Of a stretch of 64,000 nt of DNA, positions 1 to 12,085 are shown in pieces (the first letter of the stretch is position 1; every line of letters begins with the position of its first letter). The notes under the pieces were generated by a model. That model saw only the letters and a list, made by a program, of their open reading frames with translations. It had not been told where the DNA came from and ran no database searches. The translations under genes were made by a program, and so were the position numbers. Source of the stretch: Janthinobacterium lividum (GTDB lineage Bacteria > Pseudomonadota > Gammaproteobacteria > Burkholderiales > Burkholderiaceae_D). Location of the stretch: contig NZ_CP139976.1 of the NCBI RefSeq assembly GCF_034424625.1, positions 1,798,001 through 1,862,000 on the forward strand, given 5' to 3'.

Positions 1-105
1 CTGATGACGGGCGCCGCCATCGCCGTGCTGCCGCTGCTGCTGATGTTTTTTGTTGCCTCCAAGCGCCTGATCGAAGGGCTGACCCAGGGCGCCGTCAAAG
101 GCTGA
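1..105 (+). CDS. carbohydrate ABC transporter permease, C-terminal end (partial)
   Basis: Only the last 34 codons are in the window, ending in TGA at 103-105. The fragment has a hydrophobic helix followed by a basic tail ending in RLIEGLTQGAVKG. That is the usual ending of MalG-type inner-membrane permeases of sugar ABC importers. The stop overlaps the next start (TGATG), and a MalK-type ATPase lies two genes downstream, so this is probably the membrane component of the same importer. The family assignment rests on the short tail and the context. Confidence 0.7.
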   Translation: MMTGAAIAVLPLLLMFFVASKRLIEGLTQGAVKG

Positions 106-1511
106 TGCACTCACTTATTTCAACCCCTCACACTGATACCACCACCATGCATAACGACGACATTGACACCAATTTCCCCGCCACCTTCACCTGGGGCGTG
201 GCCACCAGCGCCTACCAGATCGAGGGCGCCGCCGCCATCGACGGCCGCGGCCCGTCCATCTGGGATACCTTCAGCCATACGGATGGCAAGATCATCGACG
301 GCAGCAATGGCGACGTGGCCTGCGACCACTATCACCGCTATGCCGAGGACGTGGAGCTGATCGCCAACCTGGGCGTGAACGCCTACCGCTTTTCCATGTC
401 CTGGTCGCGCGTGCAGCCGGCCGGTTCCGGCGCCTGGAACGAAGCGGGCTTCGACTTCTATGCGCGCCTGCTTGACGCCCTGGCCGCCAAGGGGCTCGAT
501 GCCCATTTGACCCTGTACCACTGGGACTTGCCGCAAGCCTTGCAGGACGAGGGCGGCTGGCTCAATCGCGCCACCTGCTACCACTTTGCCGCCTATGCGG
601 CCGAGGTGGCGCGCCGCTTCGGCCACAAGGTCGCCAGCATCGCCACCCATAACGAACCGTGGTGCACGGCCGTGCTGGGCCACGGCACGGGCCAGTTCGC
701 CCCCGGCATGGCCGATCCGGCCGCCGCCGTGCAAGTGTCGCACCACTTGCTGCTGTCGCACGGCTTGGCCATGCAGGCCATGCGCACGGTGAATGCGCCG
801 GCGAAGCTGGGCATCGTGCTCAATCAATGGACGGCCACACCGGCTACCGACAGTGCCCAGGACCGCGAACTGGCCGAACTCGAATATGCACGCTCGGTGC
901 AGTGGTATATGGACGCCATCTTCAAGGGCCGCTACCCGGCCCTGGCCCTGAAACACGCCGACGCTTCTGCTTTATTCATCTTTGAAAACGATTTCATGGA
1001 TATTAAACAGCCTATCGATTTCCTTGGCGTGAATTACTACACGCGCGCTTTCATGAGCGCCGAGACGCCGCCGCGCAAGCCCGAATGCAAGCTCGGGGTC
1101 AACGACATGGGCTGGGAAACCTATCCGCAAGGCTTGACGGAGCTGCTCGTGGGCCTGCACCGCGAATACCGGCTGCCGCCCGTCTACATCACGGAAAACG
1201 GCATGGCGGTTGCCGACAAGCCCGTCGACGGCAAGATTCATGACGAACCGCGCATCGAGTACGTGCAACTGCACCTGGATGCCTTGCGCGCCGTGATCGC
1301 GCAGGGCATCGACGTGCGCGGCTATTTCTACTGGAGCCTGATGGATAACTTCGAGTGGAACTCCGGCTACGCCAAGCGCTTCGGCATGCTGTACGTCGAT
1401 TACGCCACGCAGCAACGCAGTTTCAAGGACAGCGCCCTGTGGTACCGCGACTTCATCGCCGCGCAGCGCGCCGCGCATGCCGATGCGGCCGTCCTGGCCG
1501 GGGAGCACTGA
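105..1511 (+). CDS. bglB: GH1 beta-glucosidase
   Basis: A 468-residue cytoplasmic family 1 glycoside hydrolase that should cleave terminal beta-glucosides such as cellobiose. The N-terminal [13 protein letters not shown] block, the acid/base motif HNEP (Glu184) and the nucleophile motif ITENG (Glu364) are all present. The C-terminal W-S-L-M-D-N-F-E-W substrate-binding block is also there. Length is normal for the family. The start at 105 overlaps the permease stop and has AAAGG upstream; a second ATG at 147 begins nearer the conserved fold and cannot be excluded. It is translationally coupled to an ABC importer and followed by its ATPase, which suggests import of the disaccharide followed by intracellular hydrolysis. 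Confidence 0.93.
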
Positions 1512-1512
1512 C

Positions 1513-2565
1513 ATGGCCGCCATTTCCCTGCGCGGCATCCGCAAGACCTACGGCGACGGCCCGGAAATCGTCAAGGGCCTGGACCTTGATATCCATGACG
1601 GCGAATTCATGGTCTTCGTGGGACCGTCCGGCTGCGGCAAGTCGACCCTGCTGCGCATGATCGCGGGACTGGAAGACATCAGCGCGGGCCAGCTGCGCAT
1701 CGGCGACCTGCTGGCCAACGACGTGGCGCCGGCAGAGCGGGGCATCGCCATGGTCTTCCAGAGCTACGCCCTGTATCCGCACATGACGGCGCGCGACAAC
1801 ATGGGCTTTGCCCTCAAATTGGCGGGCAAGGGGGAGGCCGAAGTGCGCGCCGCCGTCGGCAAGGTGGCCGAGATTTTGCAGATCACGCACCTGCTTGACC
1901 GCAAACCCAAGGCCTTGTCCGGGGGCGAACGCCAGCGCGTGGCCATCGGCCGCTCCATCGTGCGCCAGCCCAAGGTATTCCTGTTTGACGAGCCGCTGTC
2001 CAACCTCGATGCCTCGCTGCGCGTGCAGACGCGCATCGAGCTGGCCAAGCTGCACCAGGAACTGGGCACCACGATGATCTACGTGACGCACGACCAGGTC
2101 GAGGCCATGACCCTCGGCGACAGGGTCGCCGTCTTCCACGGCGGCCACCTGGAGCAGGTGGGCGCGCCCCTGGACCTGTACCGCCATCCGGCCAGCCAGT
2201 TCGTGGCCGGCTTCATCGGCGCGCTGCGCATGAATTTTTTGCCGTGCGCCGCCGTCCCGGCGCTGGCCAGCCAGCTTGGTGGCGAGGCGGGCATGCTGGT
2301 CGGCATACGTCCGGAACACCTGCGGCTGGTGCCGCGCGAGGAGGGTTACGGCGCCACCGTCACCCTGATCGAGCAGCTGGGCGATGCGCAAATCATCCAC
2401 GCGACGCTCGATGGCTGTATTGACGGCGGCCCGCACGCGGTGGCCATCAAGCTGCACGGCGAGGCGCGCCATGCGCTGGCGCAGGGCAGCGCCATCGGCT
2501 TTGCGCCGGAAGAAGGCCATGCCTTTCTATTCGACACGGCCGGGCGCGCCGTGGCTACCCATTGA
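1513..2565 (+). CDS. sugar ABC transporter ATP-binding protein (MalK/UgpC type)
   Basis: A 350-residue ATPase that energises a carbohydrate importer. It has Walker A GPSGCGKS (about residue 37), the signature LSGGERQR (about 135), Walker [14 protein letters not shown] (about 155) and a C-terminal TOBE-like regulatory region with the IRPEHL motif typical of MalK/UgpC/MsmX proteins. The ATG at 1513 begins [14 protein letters not shown], two bases after the beta-glucosidase stop. An in-frame upstream start would lie inside that gene and is not needed. One such ATPase can serve several permease pairs, so its substrate is inferred from the neighbours. Confidence 0.93.
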
Positions 2566-2672
2566 CCCCGCACGGAGGCGACATGACTTCAGATTGACAC
2601 CCAAAAAATGTGCAGCAGTAGCCAAAGAGCTATGTGATCATCATTCAACCAGCGGTACAGGAGACAACAACA

Positions 2673-5123
2673 ATGCAACAGCTCAAACGCAATACCATCG
2701 CCCTCAGCCTGGCGCATGCGACATTCGCCCAGTTCATCTTGCTGGGCAGCGGCGCCGCCATGGCCCAGGACACTGCGGCCGCGGACGCGGCAAAACCGGC
2801 CTCAGAACAGATGGACCGCATCGTCGTCACGGCCACGCGCCGCAACACCTTCGTGCAGGAGACGCCGCTGGCCGTCACCGCCTTCAACCAGGACACCCTG
2901 CAAAACAACCAGGTCAAGGATCTGGCGTCGCTGGCCACCATGGTACCCAGCCTCGTCGTCGAGCAGCATGGCGACTCGGGCGGCGTGCACGTCTACATGC
3001 GCGGCGTCGGTTCGGCCAACCACACGGAGCTGGGCGACCCGGCCGTCGCCTTTTATGTCGACGGCGTGTATTCGCCGCGTCCGCAGGGCGCCACGGCGCT
3101 GATGTATGACCTGTCGCACGTCGAGGTGGCGCGCGGACCGCAGGGCACCCTGAACGGCCGCAATTCCACGGCAGGTGCCGTCAACCTCGTGTCGGCCGCG
3201 CCGAGCACGGCCAAGTTCATGGGTTCGGCCGGCATCACGGTGGGCGACAAGCGCCATTTGCAGACGCAGGGCATGATCAATATCCCGTTTTCCGACGACG
3301 TGGCGCTGCGCATCGCCGCCATCAAGGATAGCCACGACGGTACGGTGGATTTCCGCCGCGGCTCGAACGTTATGCCGGGCACGGCCAAGTATGGCGCCGG
3401 CGACCAGATGGGCGTGCGCGCCTCGCTGCTGTGGAAGTTCACGCCGCAACTGCGCGGCACGTTCATCGCCGACTACTTTCTCGACCAGGGCGCCGGCAAC
3501 GTGTACCTGGCGGCCGAACCGAAACGGGGCGAGAAGCTGCGCTCGGCACTGATCGACACGCCGGGCACCCTCGACCAGTCGATTTTGACCTACAAGGGCA
3601 AGCTCAATTACAAGCCGACCGATGCGCTGGACTTCACCTACCTGGGCAGCTGGAGCCGCTACAAGCGCCAGAACAGCAACGATGCCGATGCGGGCCTGTT
3701 CCCCGGCTTCAAGTCGGAAAACCGCACCGACTGGGCGCAGTTCGACAGCTATTCGCACGAGCTGCAGGCGCGCTCGGACGACGATGCGCCGTTCCAGTGG
3801 GTGGCCGGCCTGTTCCTGTTCAATGAAAAGAACAAGGTGCGCTTCGATATCGACCGCAGCCAGATTTCGCAGGCCGCCGTGCAGCAGGATATCGCCAACG
3901 GCGCCGTGATCTTCGTGCAGCCGACCGTGGGCCAGTATGCCTCGGCCATGTCCTTCATCCAGGGCGACCGCCAGCTCAAATCAAAGGCCGTATTCGGCCA
4001 GGTCAGCCAGCAAGTGACGGACCAGATCAAGCTGACGGCCGGCGCGCGCTACACGAAAGACCATAAATTCGACGTCGGTGGCAAGAACTGGGCTTGCCCG
4101 AACTGGCCTGCCAACACGCCGCTGGGCACCACCGTGCTCACGCCCGATCAACTGGCGCAGCTGGTCACGCCGGGCACGGGCCTGGCCAATACGCACAATA
4201 TCGGTCCTGGCGGCGCCATCACGGCGGCGACCTGCGGCAATACGCCGGGCGACAATACGGCCGACCTGAAATACGGCCAGGCCACCTGGCTGGGCCGCAT
4301 CGAGTACAAGCTGCGCTCCGATATCCTGCTGTTCGGCTCCGTGACGACGGGTTTCCATTCGCCTGCCATCGGCGACGGCGGCGCCACCACCAAGCCGGAA
4401 AAGCTGACCAGCTATGAAATCGGCTTCAAGTCCGACCTGCTGAACCGCGAACTGACGCTGAACCTCGATGCCTTCCTGATGAAGTACAAGGACAAGCTCG
4501 AGTCGCAGGTGGTCAACAGCGTGCTGGCCAACTTCAATGCGGCCGGCGCCACCGTCAAGGGCCTGGAAGCGGAATGGGTGTGGCGGCCAACGAAGGTCGA
4601 CCGTCTGACGGGTAACGCCACTTGGTTGAAAGCCGTGTATGACGACTTCATGTCGTGCGACGTCGATGCGGCGCGCGCGAATGGCCAGTCCTGCGGTTCG
4701 ACGGCGCCATTGGTGAACGTGGGCGGCAGCACCATGAAGCATGCGCCGAAGTTTTCCACGACCGTCCAGTACGAGCATGATTTCAATGTTGCCGGCGGCC
4801 AGCTCACGCCGCGCGCCTCGGTGCATTATGAAACCATGTCGTATGTGGGCGCGGGCGCGTTCAACGGCGACGTGCCGGGCCATGCCGGCGTCAAGCGCCA
4901 GGAAGCCTACACGACCCTGGACCTGAGCCTGCGCTTCCAGCCGGCGAACAAGGCCTACACGGTGGAAGCGTTCGTGCAGAACGCCACGGACAAGGCGGTC
5001 AAGCTGGACGTCAATGAAATCTGCACGGACGTCGGCATGCCATGCCAGCCCACGCAGCAGATCTACGGCGCCTTCTATAACGCGCCGCGCACCTTTGGCG
5101 CGCGCGTGTCGATGAAGTTCTGA
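2673..5123 (+). CDS. TonB-dependent outer-membrane receptor, probably for a glucoside
   Basis: An 816-residue TonB-dependent receptor. It has a signal peptide ending AMAQ, a TonB-box-like MDRIVVTATRR, and a plug domain with the conserved V-E-V-A-R-G-P-Q-G-T-L-N-G-R-N-S block. A 22-strand-type barrel follows, ending in Phe (SMKF) as outer-membrane barrels do. The start at 2673 is preceded by CAGGAG; the ORF is open further upstream, but that stretch has no signal-peptide logic. Position after a beta-glucosidase and sugar importer suggests uptake of an oligosaccharide or aryl glucoside across the outer membrane. Substrate cannot be read from the sequence, and an iron chelate remains possible. 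Confidence 0.85.
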   Translation: MQQLKRNTIALSLAHATFAQFILLGSGAAMAQDTAAADAAKPASEQMDRIVVTATRRNTFVQETPLAVTAFNQDTLQNNQVKDLASLATMVPSLVVEQHGDSGGVHVYMRGVGSANHTELGDPAVAFYVDGVYSPRPQGATALMYDLSHVEVARGPQGTLNGRNSTAGAVNLVSAAPSTAKFMGSAGITVGDKRHLQTQGMINIPFSDDVALRIAAIKDSHDGTVDFRRGSNVMPGTAKYGAGDQMGVRASLLWKFTPQLRGTFIADYFLDQGAGNVYLAAEPKRGEKLRSALIDTPGTLDQSILTYKGKLNYKPTDALDFTYLGSWSRYKRQNSNDADAGLFPGFKSENRTDWAQFDSYSHELQARSDDDAPFQWVAGLFLFNEKNKVRFDIDRSQISQAAVQQDIANGAVIFVQPTVGQYASAMSFIQGDRQLKSKAVFGQVSQQVTDQIKLTAGARYTKDHKFDVGGKNWACPNWPANTPLGTTVLTPDQLAQLVTPGTGLANTHNIGPGGAITAATCGNTPGDNTADLKYGQATWLGRIEYKLRSDILLFGSVTTGFHSPAIGDGGATTKPEKLTSYEIGFKSDLLNRELTLNLDAFLMKYKDKLESQVVNSVLANFNAAGATVKGLEAEWVWRPTKVDRLTGNATWLKAVYDDFMSCDVDAARANGQSCGSTAPLVNVGGSTMKHAPKFSTTVQYEHDFNVAGGQLTPRASVHYETMSYVGAGAFNGDVPGHAGVKRQEAYTTLDLSLRFQPANKAYTVEAFVQNATDKAVKLDVNEICTDVGMPCQPTQQIYGAFYNAPRTFGARVSMKF

Positions 5124-5179
5124 TGGCGTAGGGTGAAAGAGCAGTCGCAGTAGCAGTCCACTCAGTAGGGTAGGTGTTG

Positions 5180-5206
5180 GGCCGGGGAGCTTCCCCGGCC
5201 TTTTTT
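5180..5206 (+). terminator. rho-independent terminator after the TonB receptor
   Basis: A GC-rich stem (GGCCGGGGA pairing with TCCCCGGCC) is followed directly by six T residues. It ends the plus-strand glucoside block. The T-run touches the xseA stop codon on the opposite strand. Confidence 0.88.
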
Positions 5207-5207
5207 A

Positions 5208-6569
5208 TTATTCCAGGGTGGCTTGCACGCTGGCGATGCCGATCTGCGCGCTGCCTTCGGCCAGGCGCACATTGACGTTCTGGCGCGCCTGCAGCTGCGC
5301 CGGCGAGCGGACGATCGCCCCTTTCTCATCGCGCAGGATGGCGTAGCCGCGTTCCAGCGTGCGCTGGGGATTCAACAGCTCCAGCTGCGCCGCCAGGCCA
5401 TCGAGGCGGTGGCGCCGCTGTCCCAGCTGCTGCGCCATGGCCGCGCCGCCGCGCCGCTGCATTTCTTCCAGGCGCGCGCGCGGCGCCGCGACGTCGGGCC
5501 GCAAGGCCGCCCAGCGCGCACGCAGGCGTTCGAGTGCGTACTGCGACTGGTTCACGGGCGCGCGCGCCGCATGCGTCATGGCCGTCGACAGGGCCAGCAG
5601 CTGCAAACGCTGCTGCTGCAGCTGCGCCTTCGGGTTGAGCAGGCGGCGGCTGTGGCGGTCCAGGGTCTGCGCCGCGTCGTCGAGGCTGCGGCGCATGGCG
5701 CGGCGCAGGTCGGCCGCATCGGCGCGCAGGGAAGCCATCCAGTCGGCGCGCGGCGTGGCCGCCAGTTCGGCCGCCGCCGTCGGCGTGGCAGCGCGCAGGT
5801 CGGCCGCGAAGTCGGCGATGGTGAAATCCGTCTCGTGTCCCACGCCGCTGATCACGGGCATGGAACAATCGGCAATCGCGTGGGCCACGGCTTCATCGTT
5901 GAACGACCACAAATCTTCGATACTGCCGCCGCCACGGCACACCAGCAGCACGTCGCACTCGGCCCTTGTGGATGCCGTGCGGATGGCGTGCGCGATCTTT
6001 TCCGGCGCCTGCTGCCCCTGGACGGGCGTGGGGTAGAGGATGATGGAGACGTGCGGCGCGCGGCGCTTGAGCGCGATCAGCACGTCGCGCAGGGCGGCCG
6101 CCTGCGGGCTGGTGACGATGCCGATGCTGCGCGCGAACATGGGGATGGCGCGCTTGCGTTCCTGGTCGAACAGCCCCTGCGCGGCCAGCTTTTCCTTCAG
6201 GCGCTGGAACGCTTCATACAGGGCCCCCACGCCGGCGCGGCGGATGGCTTCCACGTTGATCTGGTAATCGCCGCGCGCGCCGTACAGGGTGACGAGGGCG
6301 CGCACTTCCACCTTGTCGCCTTCGCGCGGCGTGAAGCCGGCAAACTGGGCGCGGCCGCGGAACATCACGGCGCGCACCTGGGCGCCATCATCTTTTAATG
6401 TGAAATACCAGTGGCCGGACGCGGCGCGCGTGAAGTTGGAAATCTCGCCGGCGATCCATGTCAGGGGAAACGAGCGCTCAAGCAGGCGCGCGACGGCCTG
6501 GTTCAGGGCGCTGACGGTCAGCACGGGCGGGGCGGCAAAGCCGCTGTCAGTTGGAGTATCGGTCATCAT
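5208..6569 (-). CDS. xseA: exodeoxyribonuclease VII large subunit
   Basis: A 453-residue large subunit of exonuclease VII, which with XseB degrades single-stranded DNA to oligonucleotides. Near the N-terminus is the OB-fold ([12 protein letters not shown], then H-W-Y-F-T-L-K-D). The catalytic-region motifs [27 protein letters not shown] and [11 protein letters not shown] follow. A long helical region leads to the C-terminal GYAILRD block. Length is normal. It diverges from exbB across the DnaA-box array and could share control with it. The start is MM; either Met is possible. Confidence 0.97.
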
Positions 6570-6689
6570 CTGGTGCTATGGGGGAGGGAACTGTCCACAT
6601 ATTATCGGCGAGGTCATGCTTATGTCATATATCGTGCAAAACAACAAGTTCTATTTCTAAGTATTTGATTTTATGATGAATTCCCGTAT

Positions 6690-7713
6690 GCCTGATTTGC
6701 GTGCACAGGGAAAAAAACCTTTAATATCAAGCACATCAGTAAAGCCTCTGCCACTTACGCACAAAGTTATCCACAGAAAGTGTGCGGAACTTTTTGCCTT
6801 GGACAAACGTTGCCTGACAAGCCAGCATTGAGCGATAAAAGTGCCGTGCTACATTTTTGCGCACGGAAATAAAGTGTATAGGAATCAAGCGCTTAGTATG
6901 CCATGCATGGCCTTGCGCACAATCTTATCCACAAAAAATGTGCAGAACTCTGGCACAGCGCCTGATTTATCCACCGGAACGCCCATGGCATGGCTTGCCT
7001 GAATTTTGCGCAGCATAAAAATAGCCATATAAATCAAGGGTATAGCATCACGCCGTACGCCTTGCTCACAATCTTATCCACAGAATGTGTGCAAAACTGC
7101 ATAAACCGTTTCGCCTTTTCACCGGCTTTTCCACTGCACGACCAGAGCATTCCTCTGCCTCATTTTTCAGCATTGAAAAAAACTCCTTTAAAATCAATGC
7201 TCTTACATGGAGTCAATCCGCTTGCTCACAATCTTATCCACACTTTATGTGTGGAACTGCCTTCACGCTTAAAAACTGCCGTGTTGAAGTGAAATCGGAC
7301 GCCGAAAACCCTGCTTTTCAGGCCGTGCTACATTTTTATGCATGACAATAAAAACGATATAAATCAATGTACTTGGCGCCTATCTTTGAGCTTGCGCACA
7401 ATCTTGTCCACAGATTGTGTGCAGAACTTTTACGGCCACTATGCCGCGTATCGCACACCCGCTGCCACTTTTTTACTCATTGATTTAATTTCCTTTAAAA
7501 TCAATGGCTTAATTGAATTCCTGGGCTTTGCGCACAATCTTGTCCACAGTAAATGTGCAGAACTCTTCAGGTGTTGATTTATTGATATTGACTACTGCCG
7601 TTAAGCTGCTATGCCTGTATTTTGCGCAGTTCTATAATCTGCATATAAATCAATGACTTGCCTGATGGACTTCATGCTTGCTCACAATCTTATCCACATA
7701 AAATGTGCAAAAC
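6690..7713 (+). repeat. array of seven IHF/DnaA-box units (datA- or DARS-like)
   Basis: Seven imperfect units spaced 136-170 bp apart fill the xseA-exbB intergenic region. DnaA boxes (TTATCCACA, or TTGTCCACA in units 5 and 6) start at 6767, 6925, 7074, 7234, 7404, 7540 and 7690. In every unit exactly 5 nt separate this box from an inverted degenerate box (TGTGCAGAA or a variant). ATCAA motifs begin 41 nt upstream of each box (40 in unit 6), at 6726, 6884, 7033, 7193, 7363, 7500 and 7649. Units 2, 6 and 7 match the IHF consensus WATCAANNNNTTR in full, and A/T-rich tracts precede the ATCAA. Flanking GCGCACA and TGTGC arms form a longer inverted repeat. Spacing inside units is rigid and spacing between units is loose, so the unit itself appears to be selected. 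E. coli datA and DARS combine DnaA boxes with IHF; the assignment here is inference. No gene was recognised in this stretch. Confidence 0.85.
6967..6975 (+). promoter_or_regulatory. near-consensus DnaA box between units 2 and 3
   Basis: TTATCCACC differs from the strict DnaA box at the last base. It lies outside the regular unit spacing and lacks the paired inverted box, so it may be an accidental or weak extra site. Confidence 0.35.
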
Positions 7714-7744
7714 CGGGCACTGGCGGTGGGCGTCCGCTGCGCCG

Positions 7745-7753
7745 TGTGGACAA
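7745..7753 (-). promoter_or_regulatory. reverse-oriented DnaA box upstream of exbB
   Basis: TGTGGACAA on the plus strand reads TTGTCCACA on the minus strand, the same box variant as in units 5 and 6. It is the only strict box facing the other way and sits between the array and exbB. A TACAAT hexamer at 7844-7849 is a possible -10 element for exbB, without a convincing -35. Confidence 0.5.
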
Positions 7754-7897
7754 CTGCCATGCGGGCGCCACTTGCCGCCGGCGCGGCAACGCGCTACATT
7801 GCGCCATTCCTGCGCGGACGTACAATCGGTCTTCGGCGCTCGGTACAATACAGGCTGTTCGGGCGGTCCATCGCCTTCCCTTTTCCAGGAGTTTCTT

Positions 7898-8503
7898 TTG
7901 CTCGCTATATTTCAAGCCGCTGGCTGGCCCATCTGGCTGTTGTTGATCGCTTCCATCGTCGCCCTGGCCCTGATCATCGAGCGCCTGCTGTATTTGCGCC
8001 GCGTCAAGATACTGCCCCGCAAGCTGTTTGATGAAGTGGCGCAGGTGTATCGCAGCGGCAAGATCACGCCGGACACGGTGGCCAAGCTGGAAGACAACTC
8101 GCCGCTGGGCGTGGTGCTGGCCGCCGCCCTGCGCAACGTCGACGCGCCACGCGAGGTGATGAAGGAATCGATCGAAGAGGCGGGCAGCGGCGTGGCCCAC
8201 ACGCTGGAGCGTTTCCTGACGACCCTGGGCACCATCGCCACCCTGGCTCCGCTGATGGGCCTGTTTGGCACGGTGGTGGGCATGATCGAAATCTTCGGCT
8301 CGCAAAACGCCAGCGGCTCCAATCCCGCACAGTTGGCCCACGGCATCTCGGTGGCCCTGTATAACACGGGCTTTGGCCTGGCCATCGCCATGCCGACCCT
8401 GGTCTTCTACCGCCATTTCCGCGCCCTCGTCGACAGCTTCGTCATTGACATGGAGCAGCAAGCGGTCAAGTTCGTCGACATCGTCCACAGTGGCCGCAAA
8501 TGA
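7898..8503 (+). CDS. exbB: MotA/TolQ/ExbB proton channel family protein
   Basis: A 201-residue inner-membrane protein of the ExbB/TolQ family, which with ExbD converts proton-motive force into TonB (or Tol) movement. An N-terminal membrane segment (G-W-P-I-W-L-L-L-I-A-S) is followed by a cytoplasmic loop. Two C-terminal helices carry the G-T-I-A-T-L-A-P-L-M-G-L-F-G-T-V-V-G-M and Y-N-T-G-F-G-L-A-I-A motifs. The frame stays open upstream into the DnaA array, but a TTG start at 7898 behind AGGAG gives the normal family length and N-terminus. It overlaps exbD by 4 bp and heads the exbB-exbD-lpxK-trm112-kdsB-adk run. The energised partner may be TonB, given the receptors in this window. Confidence 0.9.
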   Translation: MLAIFQAAGWPIWLLLIASIVALALIIERLLYLRRVKILPRKLFDEVAQVYRSGKITPDTVAKLEDNSPLGVVLAAALRNVDAPREVMKESIEEAGSGVAHTLERFLTTLGTIATLAPLMGLFGTVVGMIEIFGSQNASGSNPAQLAHGISVALYNTGFGLAIAMPTLVFYRHFRALVDSFVIDMEQQAVKFVDIVHSGRK

Positions 8504-8940
8504 ACTTCCGCAAAGGCAAGGGGCGTGAAGACCCCGAAATCAACCTGATCCCGTTCATCGACGTGCTGCTGGTGATCCTGATCTTCCTCATGGTCAGCAC
8601 TACCTACAGCAAGTTCACGGAGCTGCAGATCACCTTGCCGACGGCCGACGCCGAGCAAGCCAAGGAAAAGCCGCAGCAGATCGACGTCACCATCGATGCC
8701 AAGGGCAATTACACGGTCAACCGCGAGCCCGTCTCGTTCCGCGACGTGGCCGGCCTGGCCGACGCCCTGCAAAGCGCGGCCAAGGCTGCCAATGGCGGCA
8801 AGGCACCCGCGCAGACGCCCGTGGTGGTGGTCAACGCCGACCAGTTCGCCATGCACCAGATGGTCATCCACGTGATGGAAGCGGCGCGCCTGGCCGGCTA
8901 TGAAAAGCTGACGTTTGCGGCGCAGGCGGGTGGCAAGTAA
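8500..8940 (+). CDS. exbD: ExbD/TolR family biopolymer transport protein
   Basis: A 146-residue protein anchored by one N-terminal membrane helix. The segment NLIPFIDVLLVILIFLMVS carries the Asp that ExbD/TolR proteins use for proton coupling. The rest is a periplasmic domain (I-T-L-P-T-A ... V-V-V-N-A-D). The ATG overlaps the exbB stop in ATGA, so the two are coupled. It should form the proton channel complex with ExbB. Confidence 0.93.
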   Translation: MNFRKGKGREDPEINLIPFIDVLLVILIFLMVSTTYSKFTELQITLPTADAEQAKEKPQQIDVTIDAKGNYTVNREPVSFRDVAGLADALQSAAKAANGGKAPAQTPVVVVNADQFAMHQMVIHVMEAARLAGYEKLTFAAQAGGK

Positions 8941-8969
8941 GGCCAACCTCCAACCCCAACCGAAGTGCC

Positions 8970-8996
8970 GGGGTCGGACCCTCAGGGTCCGACCCC
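8970..8996. repeat. 27-bp perfect palindrome (REP-like)
   Basis: The arms GGGGTCGGACCCT and AGGGTCCGACCCC are exact reverse complements around one central base. It lies between exbD and lpxK, 30 bp after the exbD stop, with no T-run to make it a classical terminator. Similar palindromes are dispersed in related genomes as far as I recall; no second copy was seen in this window. Confidence 0.65.
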
Positions 8997-9033
8997 AGGT
9001 GTCGATTTTGGGTTCCAATTTTAGTTGACACGC

Positions 9034-10089
9034 ATGCCCATATCCTCTCCCGCCAAGCTTGAAACCACTCTCACCCGCGCCTGGCTGACGCGCGGCCCGC
9101 TGGCGTGCGCGCTGTGGCCCGTATCCCTGCTGTTCGGCGCCCTGAGCGCCGTGCGGCGCGGCCTGTATCGGGCCAAGCTCCTGACATCCGCGCGCCTGCC
9201 CGTGCCCGTCGTCGTCGTCGGCAACATTTTCATCGGCGGCACGGGCAAGACGCCGCTGACGATCTGGCTGGTGCAAGCCTTGCGCGAGGCGGGCATGCGC
9301 CCGGGCGTCATTTCGCGCGGCCATGGCAGCGCCGACCGTGCGCCGCGCGCCGTCAGCGCCGCTTCCACGCCGCAGCAGGTGGGCGATGAGCCGCTGCTGA
9401 TCTTCCAGCGCGGCGGTTGCCCCGTGATGGTGGGGCGCGACCGCGCGCAAGCGGGCAGGGCGCTGCTGGCCGCGCACCCGGACGTCGACGTGCTGGTGAC
9501 GGACGACGGCTTGCAGCATTACGCCTTGCAGCGCGACGTGGAAATCGTGCTGTTCGACGGCCGCGGCGCAGGCAATGGCTGGCTGCTGCCGGCGGGGCCT
9601 TTGCGCGAATCGCCGCGCCGCCGGCGCGATGTGACGGTGATCAATGCGCCCGAGCTGGCGCCGGCACTGGTGGCCAGGGCCGCGCCGCAGGGCGGGCTGG
9701 TGGTGCAGATGCTGCTGGCCGGTGGCGTGGCCGAGCGCCTGCTCGACCGCGGCGAGCGCATGCCTTTGGCGACCCTGGCGGCTGGCGGCCAGCGCATCGT
9801 GGCGGCGGCCGGCATCGGCAACCCCCAGCGTTTCTTTGCCATGCTGCGCGGGGCCGGATTGGACTTCATGGAACTGCCCTTGCCCGACCATCACGACTTT
9901 CTCGACCAGCCATTTGCGGCGCTCGACACGGATGTGATCTTGATCACCGAGAAGGATGCAGTAAAATGTGCGCAAATTGAACATCTCAAAGATGACCCGA
10001 GACTGTGGGTCGTCCCCGTCAGTGCGCGCATCGATAGCGCGCTGGCCCAACAAATTGTGGAGAAATGTCGTGGACGCTCGACTGCTTGA
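9034..10089 (+). CDS. lpxK: tetraacyldisaccharide 4'-kinase
   Basis: LpxK phosphorylates the 4' position of the lipid A disaccharide precursor at the inner membrane. The 351-residue product has a membrane-associated N-terminus, the P-loop [12 protein letters not shown] (about residue 63), then [15 protein letters not shown], the V-T-D-D-G-L-Q-H-Y block and ITEKDAVKC near the C-terminus. Length is typical. The ATG at 9034 is chosen over the TTG at 9025; both are in frame. The 3' end overlaps trm112 by 20 bp, and kdsB (lipopolysaccharide core) is next but one, so this is an envelope operon. Confidence 0.96.
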
Positions 10090-10246
10090 TATCCTGGTCT
10101 GCCCTGTTTGCAAGGGTCCGCTTGAACACGATAAGAAGGCGCAGGAACTGATTTGCCGCGCCGACCGCCTGGCCTATCCGATCCGCGATGGCATCCCCAT
10201 CATGTGGGCGGACGAAGCGCGCACCCTGCAAGACGCAGTGGAATAA
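10070..10246 (+). CDS. Trm112 family small zinc-ribbon-like protein
   Basis: A 58-residue protein of the Trm112/YcaR family, known to lie between lpxK and kdsB in many proteobacteria. It begins with a GTG behind GGAG and reads [18 protein letters not shown]. It has a CPVC pair, one further Cys ([13 protein letters not shown]) and the D-G-I-P-I-M motif. Related proteins act as activators of methyltransferases; the bacterial partner is not settled. It overlaps the end of lpxK. Confidence 0.9.
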
Positions 10247-10248
10247 CG

Positions 10249-11004
10249 ATGGCGTTCATCGTCATCATCCCGGCCCGCCTGGCCTCGACGCGCCTGCCGG
10301 GCAAGCCGCTGGCTGACCTGGGCGGCAAGCCCATGGTGGTGCGCGTGGCCGAGCAGGCAGCCTTGTCTGGCGCCGCGCGCGTCATCGTCGCCACCGACCA
10401 TGACAGCATCCGCGCCGCCTGCGCCGCGCATGGCGTGGAAGTGTGCATGACGCGCAGCGATCATCCGTCGGGCACGGACCGCATCGCCGAAGTGGCGCGC
10501 ACGCTCGATTTGCCGTTGGACGCCGTCGTCGTCAACCTGCAGGGCGACGAACCCCTGATCGATCCGGGCCTGCTGGCCGCCTGCGCGGCGCAGATCAGCG
10601 CTGCCGTCCCCATGGCCACCTGCGCCCATCCGCTGCACGATGTGCAGGATGCGTTCAACCCGAACGTGGTGAAGGTCGTGCTGGACAAGAATGGCCGCGC
10701 CTTGTATTTCTCGCGCGCCACCATCCCGTGGCACCGCGACGGTTTCGCGCAATCGAAAGACAGCCTGCCGGCTGGCTACGTGCCGCTGCGCCATATCGGC
10801 CTGTATGCGTACAGCAATGCGTTCTTGCAAGAATATCCGCAATTGTCCGCTTCGCCGCTGGAAGCCATCGAGGCGCTGGAGCAGTTGCGCGTGCTGTGGC
10901 ACGGTGTGGCCATCGCCGTGCATGTCACGGACTCGGCGCCAGCCGCCGGTGTCGACACGCCGGAAGATCTTGCCAGGGTGCAAGCTCACTACGGCGCCCT
11001 GTAA
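10249..11004 (+). CDS. kdsB: 3-deoxy-manno-octulosonate cytidylyltransferase
   Basis: KdsB activates KDO as CMP-KDO for lipopolysaccharide inner core synthesis in the cytoplasm. The 251-residue product shows the N-terminal [16 protein letters not shown] nucleotide-binding loop, then [25 protein letters not shown] and the H-I-G-L-Y-A-Y block. The start is the ATG at 10249, two bases after the trm112 stop. Length matches the family. Confidence 0.97.
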
Positions 11005-11021
11005 GCGCTACCCGCAAAACG

Positions 11022-11053
11022 GCAGGCGTGCAAATATAATTTTGTGCGCCTGC
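11022..11053 (+). other. strong hairpin between kdsB and adk, with TATAAT in the loop
   Basis: A 13-bp stem (GCAGGCGTGCAAA with TTTGTGCGCCTGC, two G-T pairs) closes on the six-base loop TATAAT. No T-run follows, so it is not a textbook terminator. The loop sequence equals the sigma-70 -10 consensus, but the matching -35 position is poor. It may attenuate or process the transcript before adk, or be a promoter within a dyad. Confidence 0.5.
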
Positions 11054-11185
11054 AGTAAAAACCACATTTTGAAACGTGCGTCGCGCGAATTGCTGGCTTT
11101 GATCAATCAGGGCATAGCAATTCGATAGCAAACTGGCGTTCCGGGGTTTTTTTGTGGTAAGTTTCGTAGGGAAAGATAGCCTTAG

Positions 11186-11905
<720 letters not shown>

Positions 11906-11915
11906 GCAGTTTATG

Positions 11916-11944
11916 AAAAGCGGACCTGAGTGTCCGCTTTTTTT
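11916..11944 (+). terminator. rho-independent terminator after adk
   Basis: The stem AAAAGCGGAC / GTCCGCTTTT with loop CTGAGT runs into a continuous T-tract just after the adk stop. It closes the exbB-adk block. Confidence 0.9.
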
Positions 11945-12085
11945 GTGCCCGCTTTTCAGCAGCGGTGCCACATCGTTTTCGTGGTTCAGGTTTTTTGCAG
12001 GTCGTGTTTTCCTGGCTGCGCGTGCCTACCCGGTGCGGTCTGCAGCTGTTGGCAATGACGTCGGATAAAAACAGAAGGGGACGAT

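Follow-up and report, generated by a model that had tools for sequence, protein, structure and literature searches.

The DARS sites, which convert ADP-DnaA to ATP-DnaA, were worked out in E. coli, and chromosomal clusters of DnaA boxes lying away from the origin tune initiation in B. subtilis. Three boxes, equally spaced in DARS1 and DARS2, are described for these sites, with box I opposite to boxes II and III (PMC5742627). DARS2 occupies the mutH region as one core in 455 bp (PMC5742627) and depends on IHF and Fis; DARS1, a single copy between bioD and uvrB, needs no IHF (PMC4245941). The datA locus requires same-direction boxes and an IHF site (PMC5742627). Conservation of the DARS2 core was reported among gammaproteobacteria related to E. 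coli (PMC4245941), and because a review speaks of DARS conservation in beta- or gammaproteobacteria (PMC5742627), a betaproteobacterial DARS has already been mentioned in print. The conservation statement of that review names neither the xseA-exbB nor the hemE-priA locus, and no DARS-like site at either locus, and no tandem DARS array, was found in the literature titles and abstracts searched.

In E. coli K-12 MG1655, the DARS1 and DARS2 regions were scanned for DnaA boxes, and the datA region for single boxes only. On one strand, the DARS1 core reads TAATACACA-TGG-TTATCCACA-GGAAT-AGTGGATAA and the DARS2 core reads TTCTTCACA-ACT-CTATCCACA-GAAAA-GGTGAATAA; the TTCTTCACA-CTATCCACA-GGTGAATAA triple was identified with the DARS2 core from its position just inside the primers given in PMC4585315 for removing boxes I-III.

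The window, i.e. the whole 64,000-nt stretch of Janthinobacterium lividum DNA that was analysed, corresponds to C1:1798001-1862000 of C1, a 6.32-Mb contig beginning at dnaA. Its 1,328-bp xseA-exbB intergenic gap contains seven tandem units (Table 1). Each has one strong box II on the plus strand, TTATCCACA in five units (6767, 6925, 7074, 7234 and 7690) and TTGTCCACA in two (7404 and 7540), with 136-170 nt from one strong box to the next, just as the initial annotation had counted them. With at most one mismatch, TTATCCACA has 18 matches in the whole window, against a mean of 5.36 and a maximum of 10 in 100 shuffles. Exactly 5 nt after each strong box stands an inverted box I (TGTGCAGAA or a variant; 7/7), and an ATCAA starts 41 nt upstream of the strong box, or 40 nt in the unit at 7540; both spacings had been claimed at the outset and both hold, as does the assignment of the full IHF consensus WATCAANNNNTTR to three of seven units (6925, 7540 and 7690). 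Units 7234 and 7404 have one extra nucleotide before the TTR of this IHF-like site, which brings the count to 5/7 if 5 nt are allowed, and the TTR half is absent in units 6767 and 7074. The array first described is thus real, and its description was understated, having overlooked two elements: a direct box III (TTACGCACA in one unit, TTGCKCACA in six), set off by exactly 3 nt on the upstream side of each strong box, and, about 78 nt upstream of that box, an element that begins with TGC, is rich in T and mostly ends in GCA. In all seven units the core consists of direct box III (TTACGCACA/TTGCKCACA), 3 nt, direct box II (TTRTCCACA), 5 nt and inverted box I, and the module of about 100 bp runs in the order Fis-like element, IHF site, boxes III-II-I. 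An RNA gene or riboswitch was also considered and rejected, the Rfam scan of 6400-8000 giving one match far under its gathering score.

Table 1. Elements of the seven units and the flanking genes, in window positions
Feature	Position	Strand	Remarks
xseA (exonuclease VII large subunit), left flank	5208..6569	-	TIGR00237 above cut-off
Unit 1 Fis-like element, TGCC...GCA	6689..6705	+	
Unit 1 IHF-like site	6725..6737	+	TATCAA half only, without TTR
Unit 1 core	6755..6789	+	III 6755-6763, II 6767-6775, inverted I 6781-6789
Unit 2 Fis-like element, TGC...GCA	6847..6863	+	
Unit 2 IHF site	6883..6895	+	full consensus AATCAAGCGCTTA
Unit 2 core	6913..6947	+	III 6913-6921, II 6925-6933, I 6939-6947
Unit 3 Fis-like element, TGCC...GCA	6996..7012	+	
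Unit 3 IHF-like site	7032..7044	+	AATCAA half only
Unit 3 core	7062..7096	+	III 7062-7070, II 7074-7082, I 7088-7096
Unit 4 Fis-like element, TGCC...GCA	7156..7172	+	
Unit 4 IHF-like site	7192..7205	+	5 nt before TTA
Unit 4 core	7222..7256	+	III 7222-7230, II 7234-7242, I 7248-7256
Unit 5 Fis-like element, TGC...GCA	7326..7342	+	
Unit 5 IHF-like site	7362..7375	+	5 nt before TTG
Unit 5 core	7392..7426	+	III 7392-7400, II 7404-7412 (TTGTCCACA), I 7418-7426
Unit 6 TGCC-T-rich element	7463..7479	+	without GCA half
Unit 6 IHF site	7499..7511	+	full consensus AATCAATGGCTTA, 40-nt spacing
Unit 6 core	7528..7562	+	III 7528-7536, II 7540-7548 (TTGTCCACA), I 7554-7562
Unit 7 Fis-like element, TGCC...GCA	7612..7628	+	
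Unit 7 IHF site	7648..7660	+	full consensus AATCAATGACTTG
Unit 7 core	7678..7712	+	III 7678-7686, II 7690-7698, I 7704-7712
exbB/tolQ-family gene (MotA_ExbB), right flank	7898..8503	+	PF01618 above cut-off; NCBIfam tolQ/exbB below cut-off
exbD/tolR-like gene, after exbB	8500-8940		NCBIfam tolR/exbD below cut-off
lpxK, after exbD/tolR-like gene	9025-10089		NCBIfam above cut-off

The DARS1 and DARS2 cores and all seven units have the same III-3-II-5-I order, orientation and spacing. The architecture had been called unlike the E. coli versions, which is wrong for the core, since III-3-II-5-I is the DARS1/DARS2 layout; the accompanying proposal of a DnaA nucleotide-switch locus with IHF is, indirectly, the reading best supported. 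Where the array does differ from the E. coli DARS loci is in its tandem repetition, its compactness and its locus. DARS2 is one core within its 455 bp and the array is seven compact modules; DARS2 acts in the mutH region, whereas the array, at which ADP release would be a prediction, lies elsewhere; and DARS1 has an identical core layout with a single copy and other neighbours. Some single-copy betaproteobacterial cores come near the DARS1 sequence, e.g. TTATCCACA-GGAAT-TGTGGATAA in locus L243. In E. coli itself (L232), a degenerate second triple with the same 5/3 spacing, TTATCCCAG-CTTTC-TGTGGATAA-CAT-GGTGTAAGA, lies about 320 nt from the DARS2 core.

The likeness may extend to the upstream elements. 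Relative to box II, DARS2 has IHF-like matches at -83 and -99 with one mismatch each and a Fis-like match at -137, with further matches at -336, -425 and -491, while the array has IHF at -42/-41 and the Fis-like element at -77. In both, IHF-like and then Fis-like sites are met on the box III side of the core, so that the order Fis, IHF, III, II, I appears common to DARS2 and the array. Strong IHF sites, e.g. lambda H', have an A-tract, WATCAA and TTR in order. A sequence logo built on 67 units of 18 family genomes, in which the three boxes appear partly by construction, resolves TGCC...T-run...GCA at -78 to -62, an A-tract at -56 to -52, CCTT at -49 to -46, AATCAA at -42 to -37 and a T at -31 in 66 of 67 units, with low information outside these elements. 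Constancy of the ATCAA spacing in orthologous loci, looked for after the first description, was thus seen at -42/-41 in most units of the family logo and failed in a sample from the order: there WATCAR-N4/5-TTR was found in none of 15 units, the A-tract and the TT at -32/-31 persisting and the ATCAA not. The Fis consensus has G and C 15 bp apart (PMC8682772), and so does the TGCC...GCA element. The consensus GNNYRNNNNNYRNNC occurs at -77 in 13 of the 67 family units, against an average of 0.32 per offset, and since only three of the seven window units have it, Fis is a lead rather than a result. Two other readings of the upstream sequence were given up. An FNR/Anr reading of ATCAA, prompted by the FNR/Anr-type site TTGATNNNNATCAA in a few units of other genomes, was dropped since the left side of the family logo is the A-tract and CCTT; TTTTTGCGCA, some 70 nt before box II, was considered as a fourth DnaA box and set aside as the logo keeps TGCC and GCA and not CACA. 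From the logo, a Fis-like nature of the TGCC...GCA element is weakly preferred to a fourth DnaA box.

Conservation of the core was followed over the family and the order. The pattern CACA-N3-TTRTCCACA-N5-TGTG, with at most one mismatch, was found in 292 of 294 family genomes; read backwards it gave one match in one genome, and with the 5-nt gap changed to 6 it gave 30 matches in 27 of the 294. Loci obtained by such pattern scans, this one included, are selected by the core itself, so that the unbiased conservation tests are two protein-anchored samples free of that choice. For the order sample, 25 genomes were searched with XseA, namely G021, placed in the genus, and 24 belonging to other families of the order; 24 matched, and 18 of the 24 loci, 17 of them from other families, had a linked divergent xseA-exbB pair. 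The strict core was found in 12 of these 18 gaps, always on the exbB strand and never on the other; other gap pairs of 0-12 nt gave a mean of 0.06 genomes and a maximum of 3, and 100 shuffle rounds gave 0. For the family sample, ExbB matched in 42 of 42 genera; from the best 30 of the 42 loci, 22 were usable, and 14 of 22 genera had the strict core, two of the 14 on the other strand as well, against a mean of 0.10 and a maximum of 6 for other gap pairs and a mean of 0.02 for shuffles. In both samples (3,5) was the top gap pair. The rigid 5-nt spacing expected of orthologous loci, together with the 3-nt spacing, was accordingly seen in 14/22 family genera and 12/18 order-sample gaps, the strict core being absent in 8/22 and 6/18 (G021 among the latter). 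Some of these misses have weaker cores at a looser threshold, and two, G075 and G090, have a gap-6 match 200-250 nt before the exbB gene.

Since the array fills a divergent intergenic region and DnaA is stated to regulate transcription in E. coli (PMC11317965), DnaA- and IHF-dependent transcription control of xseA and/or exbB-exbD-lpxK was weighed, and it appears improbable. At L239 and L250 the core is kept upstream of xseA and no exbB was found beside xseA, the next genes encoding a TctC-type receptor and a Sel1-repeat protein; the core stays beside xseA when its neighbour changes. The same core also stands between hemE and priA, and the number of units beside the same genes varies from 1 to 9 across genomes, both of which argue against control of these particular genes.

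In the genus, at least four matches to a longer unit pattern were found in 36 of 37 genomes, and 30 extracted arrays had seven units (24 arrays), six (three), nine (two) or four (one, on a 3.4-kb contig). Under a loose rule, no degenerate extra units were found beside the 208 units of these arrays. The xseA-exbB gap of G021 (L234, 2851-3464) is GC-rich and without any core. Among named Janthinobacterium contigs, L138 has four cores, L168 one at the locus end and L213 seven, with flanking proteins 88-99% identical. At the looser threshold, at least three cores were found in eight of the 30 family-sample loci (5, 6, 4, 7, 3, 7, 4 and 6). Named carriers of at least three cores come from the core-pattern scan and hence from a biased sample; among the matches listed are Undibacterium sp. 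TS12 (5), Duganella sp. SG902 (5), Herbaspirillum sp. SJZ107 (4), Pseudoduganella violaceinigra (4) and Massilia eburnea (at least 3, the locus being cut). In another genus, L287 (G073) has near-identical cores at 15, 261, 506 and 752 of its stretch, about 246 bp apart, as though a DARS-like unit had recently been duplicated in tandem.

Constraint within units was measured over 17 genomes that share the window's unit spacing, its own genome among them. The 3-nt gap was invariant at 100%, box III at 95%, AATCAA at 86%, the TGCC...GCA element and the 5-nt gap at 77% each, and the remaining sequence at 25%. Box II was invariant at 100% and box I at 83%, figures that partly reflect the search for units by box II and part of box I; unit finding made no use of box III, of the 3-nt gap, of AATCAA or of the upstream element. 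Orthologous units are on average 91% identical across species and the seven units within the window 60%, so that the array is old and each unit conserved separately.

This constraint bears on the main rival, by which the array titrates DnaA, or aids ATP hydrolysis with IHF as datA does, and lowers initiation after it has been replicated. Like datA, the array combines DnaA boxes with IHF-like sites: boxes II and III, the strong ones among them, share one orientation throughout, with IHF-like sites between them, and same-direction boxes with an IHF site are what datA is stated to require (PMC5742627). Seven strong boxes would be expected to bind DnaA whatever else the array does. A difference from datA is the inverted box I that each unit adds after the 5-nt DARS spacing. 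Its presence in every unit, with that spacing strongly constrained, argues against titration or datA-like action alone, and titration by itself requires no fixed gaps; the rival, the strongest of those weighed, is considered rather unlikely. With the B. subtilis clusters the array has in common that both are chromosomal and off the origin.

Similar cores were also found away from xseA-exbB. At least 148 core-pattern loci (30 of the family and at least 118 on named contigs) were obtained, at least 44 at xseA/exbB and at least 37 at hemE and/or priA; among the matches listed, one lies upstream of uvrB in Rodentibacter, one is like the 4.48-Mb site of the genome studied here, and 65 could be assigned to none of these places. 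The uvrB gene beside the Rodentibacter core also flanks E. coli DARS1. Many contigs of betaproteobacteria and some of gammaproteobacteria have the same III-3-II-5-I core in the hemE-priA gap, at times in two copies, and the 43 hemE-priA cores have a similar upstream TGC...GCA element and A-tract. Within the stretches scanned, the genome studied here has such a core in its own hemE-priA gap (C1:123700-124200, about C1:124 kb; L063). Two more DARS-like cores about 1 kb apart were seen at C1:4481953 and C1:4483007 (L077), near open reading frames that resemble, from reading the frames, an HD-domain protein, a response regulator and a chromate transporter.

Candidates for the protein partners of such a site are encoded in the same genome. 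Hda scored above its cut-off, three HU/IHF-family proteins were found, and a Fis homologue of 77 aa, 40% identical, fell just below the NCBIfam Fis cut-offs. DnaA is 55% identical to E. coli DnaA over 448 aligned residues and keeps K178, D269, R285, L290 and R334, with R227 (AID-1) replaced by H and E21 by Q.

A mechanism can be proposed after the model for E. coli set out in PMC5742627, PMC4245941, PMC8682772 and PMC10380432. By analogy with E. coli DARS2, ADP-DnaA would bind the strong box II and be stabilised there by a second DnaA on box III, while the inverted box I would set a third DnaA head-to-head against that on box II. The AAA+ contact would lower nucleotide affinity, so that ADP leaves and apo-DnaA is released and rebinds ATP. 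Upstream, IHF and probably Fis would bend the DNA and control when the reaction takes place, and the whole array may act as one high-capacity or graded regenerator of ATP-DnaA. We infer DnaA, IHF and Fis binding, ADP release and an effect on initiation at the array from the box order, orientation, spacing and conservation, the mid-replichore position and the DnaA, Hda, HU/IHF and Fis-like genes, all of which are observed. The array is real, conserved and DARS-like, short of a proven DARS, and it is fairly probable that it represents a betaproteobacterial DARS-like locus converting ADP-DnaA to ATP-DnaA and amplified in the Janthinobacterium branch. Counted against a DARS are the one-direction strong boxes with IHF as in datA, the restriction of ATCAA to the family, the Fis consensus in 13/67 units, the lack of an array in G021, the coreless gaps and the R227H and E21Q changes. 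Furthermore, extra DARS2 copies harm E. coli (PMC4245941), and for this reason seven copies need explaining; one might speculate that more copies could be needed if boxes I and III are weaker or if control is looser elsewhere.

The element is probably a widespread control of chromosome replication timing that is here amplified. A wider scheme, put forward tentatively and with a little less than even confidence, is that DARS reactivation is ancient in proteobacteria, that xseA-exbB and hemE-priA are among its conserved betaproteobacterial loci, and that in one branch, Janthinobacterium and its relatives, the IHF-gated site grew into an array of 3 to 9 modules acting as an ATP-DnaA rheostat set by dosage. 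If true, the tandem rheostat would be of a kind not seen in E. coli. A DARS-like site syntenic across many betaproteobacterial families would let the generality of ADP-to-ATP recharging of DnaA be tested, the natural series of 1 to 9 modules at one locus bears on how site dosage sets initiation timing, and a search rule is supplied: direct box, 3 nt, direct box, 5 nt, inverted box.

The position of the array on the chromosome was read from GC skew. Sampled skew is mostly negative up to about C1 340-357 kb (near zero in places, +0.008 at 140 kb), positive in every stretch sampled between 357 kb and 3.42 Mb, and negative again from 3.60 Mb onwards, with values near zero at 6.1-6.2 Mb. These switches place the origin at about 0.35 Mb and the terminus at about 3.5 Mb; at 1.805 Mb, the array lies about 46% of the distance along from the first to the second. 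The initial annotation had offered a second origin or an iteron remnant as an alternative, and tandem DnaA boxes with A/T-rich spacers do call to mind a remnant or second replication origin or plasmid iterons: GC is 45.9% in the xseA-exbB gap against 62.3% for the window, and a mildly negative skew of -0.023 over the opening 12 kb of the window, where the array lies, contrasts with +0.033 for the rest. That dip is local, however, and probably a gene-strand effect of window positions 1-12000, as all eight surrounding stretches of 18-20 kb (six spanning C1:1680000-1797999 and two on the right-hand side) have positive skew. The array was not found at the chromosome-wide GC-skew switch, which lies about 1.45 Mb away at C1 340-357 kb, and the DARS layout and the existence of single-core orthologues further disfavour an origin or iterons, a reading that is very improbable here. 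At the skew switch itself, 355 kb from dnaA, C1:354957-356062 (L064, 14958-16063) contains seven TTRTCCACA boxes together with a 55-nt sequence that is present twice, 465 bp apart, and includes TAGTAGTGATAG-type runs (DnaA-trio-like); it is the probable true oriC. Four direct TTATCCACA boxes were also seen at C1:341052-341576 (L064, 1053-1577), 14 kb from the probable oriC.
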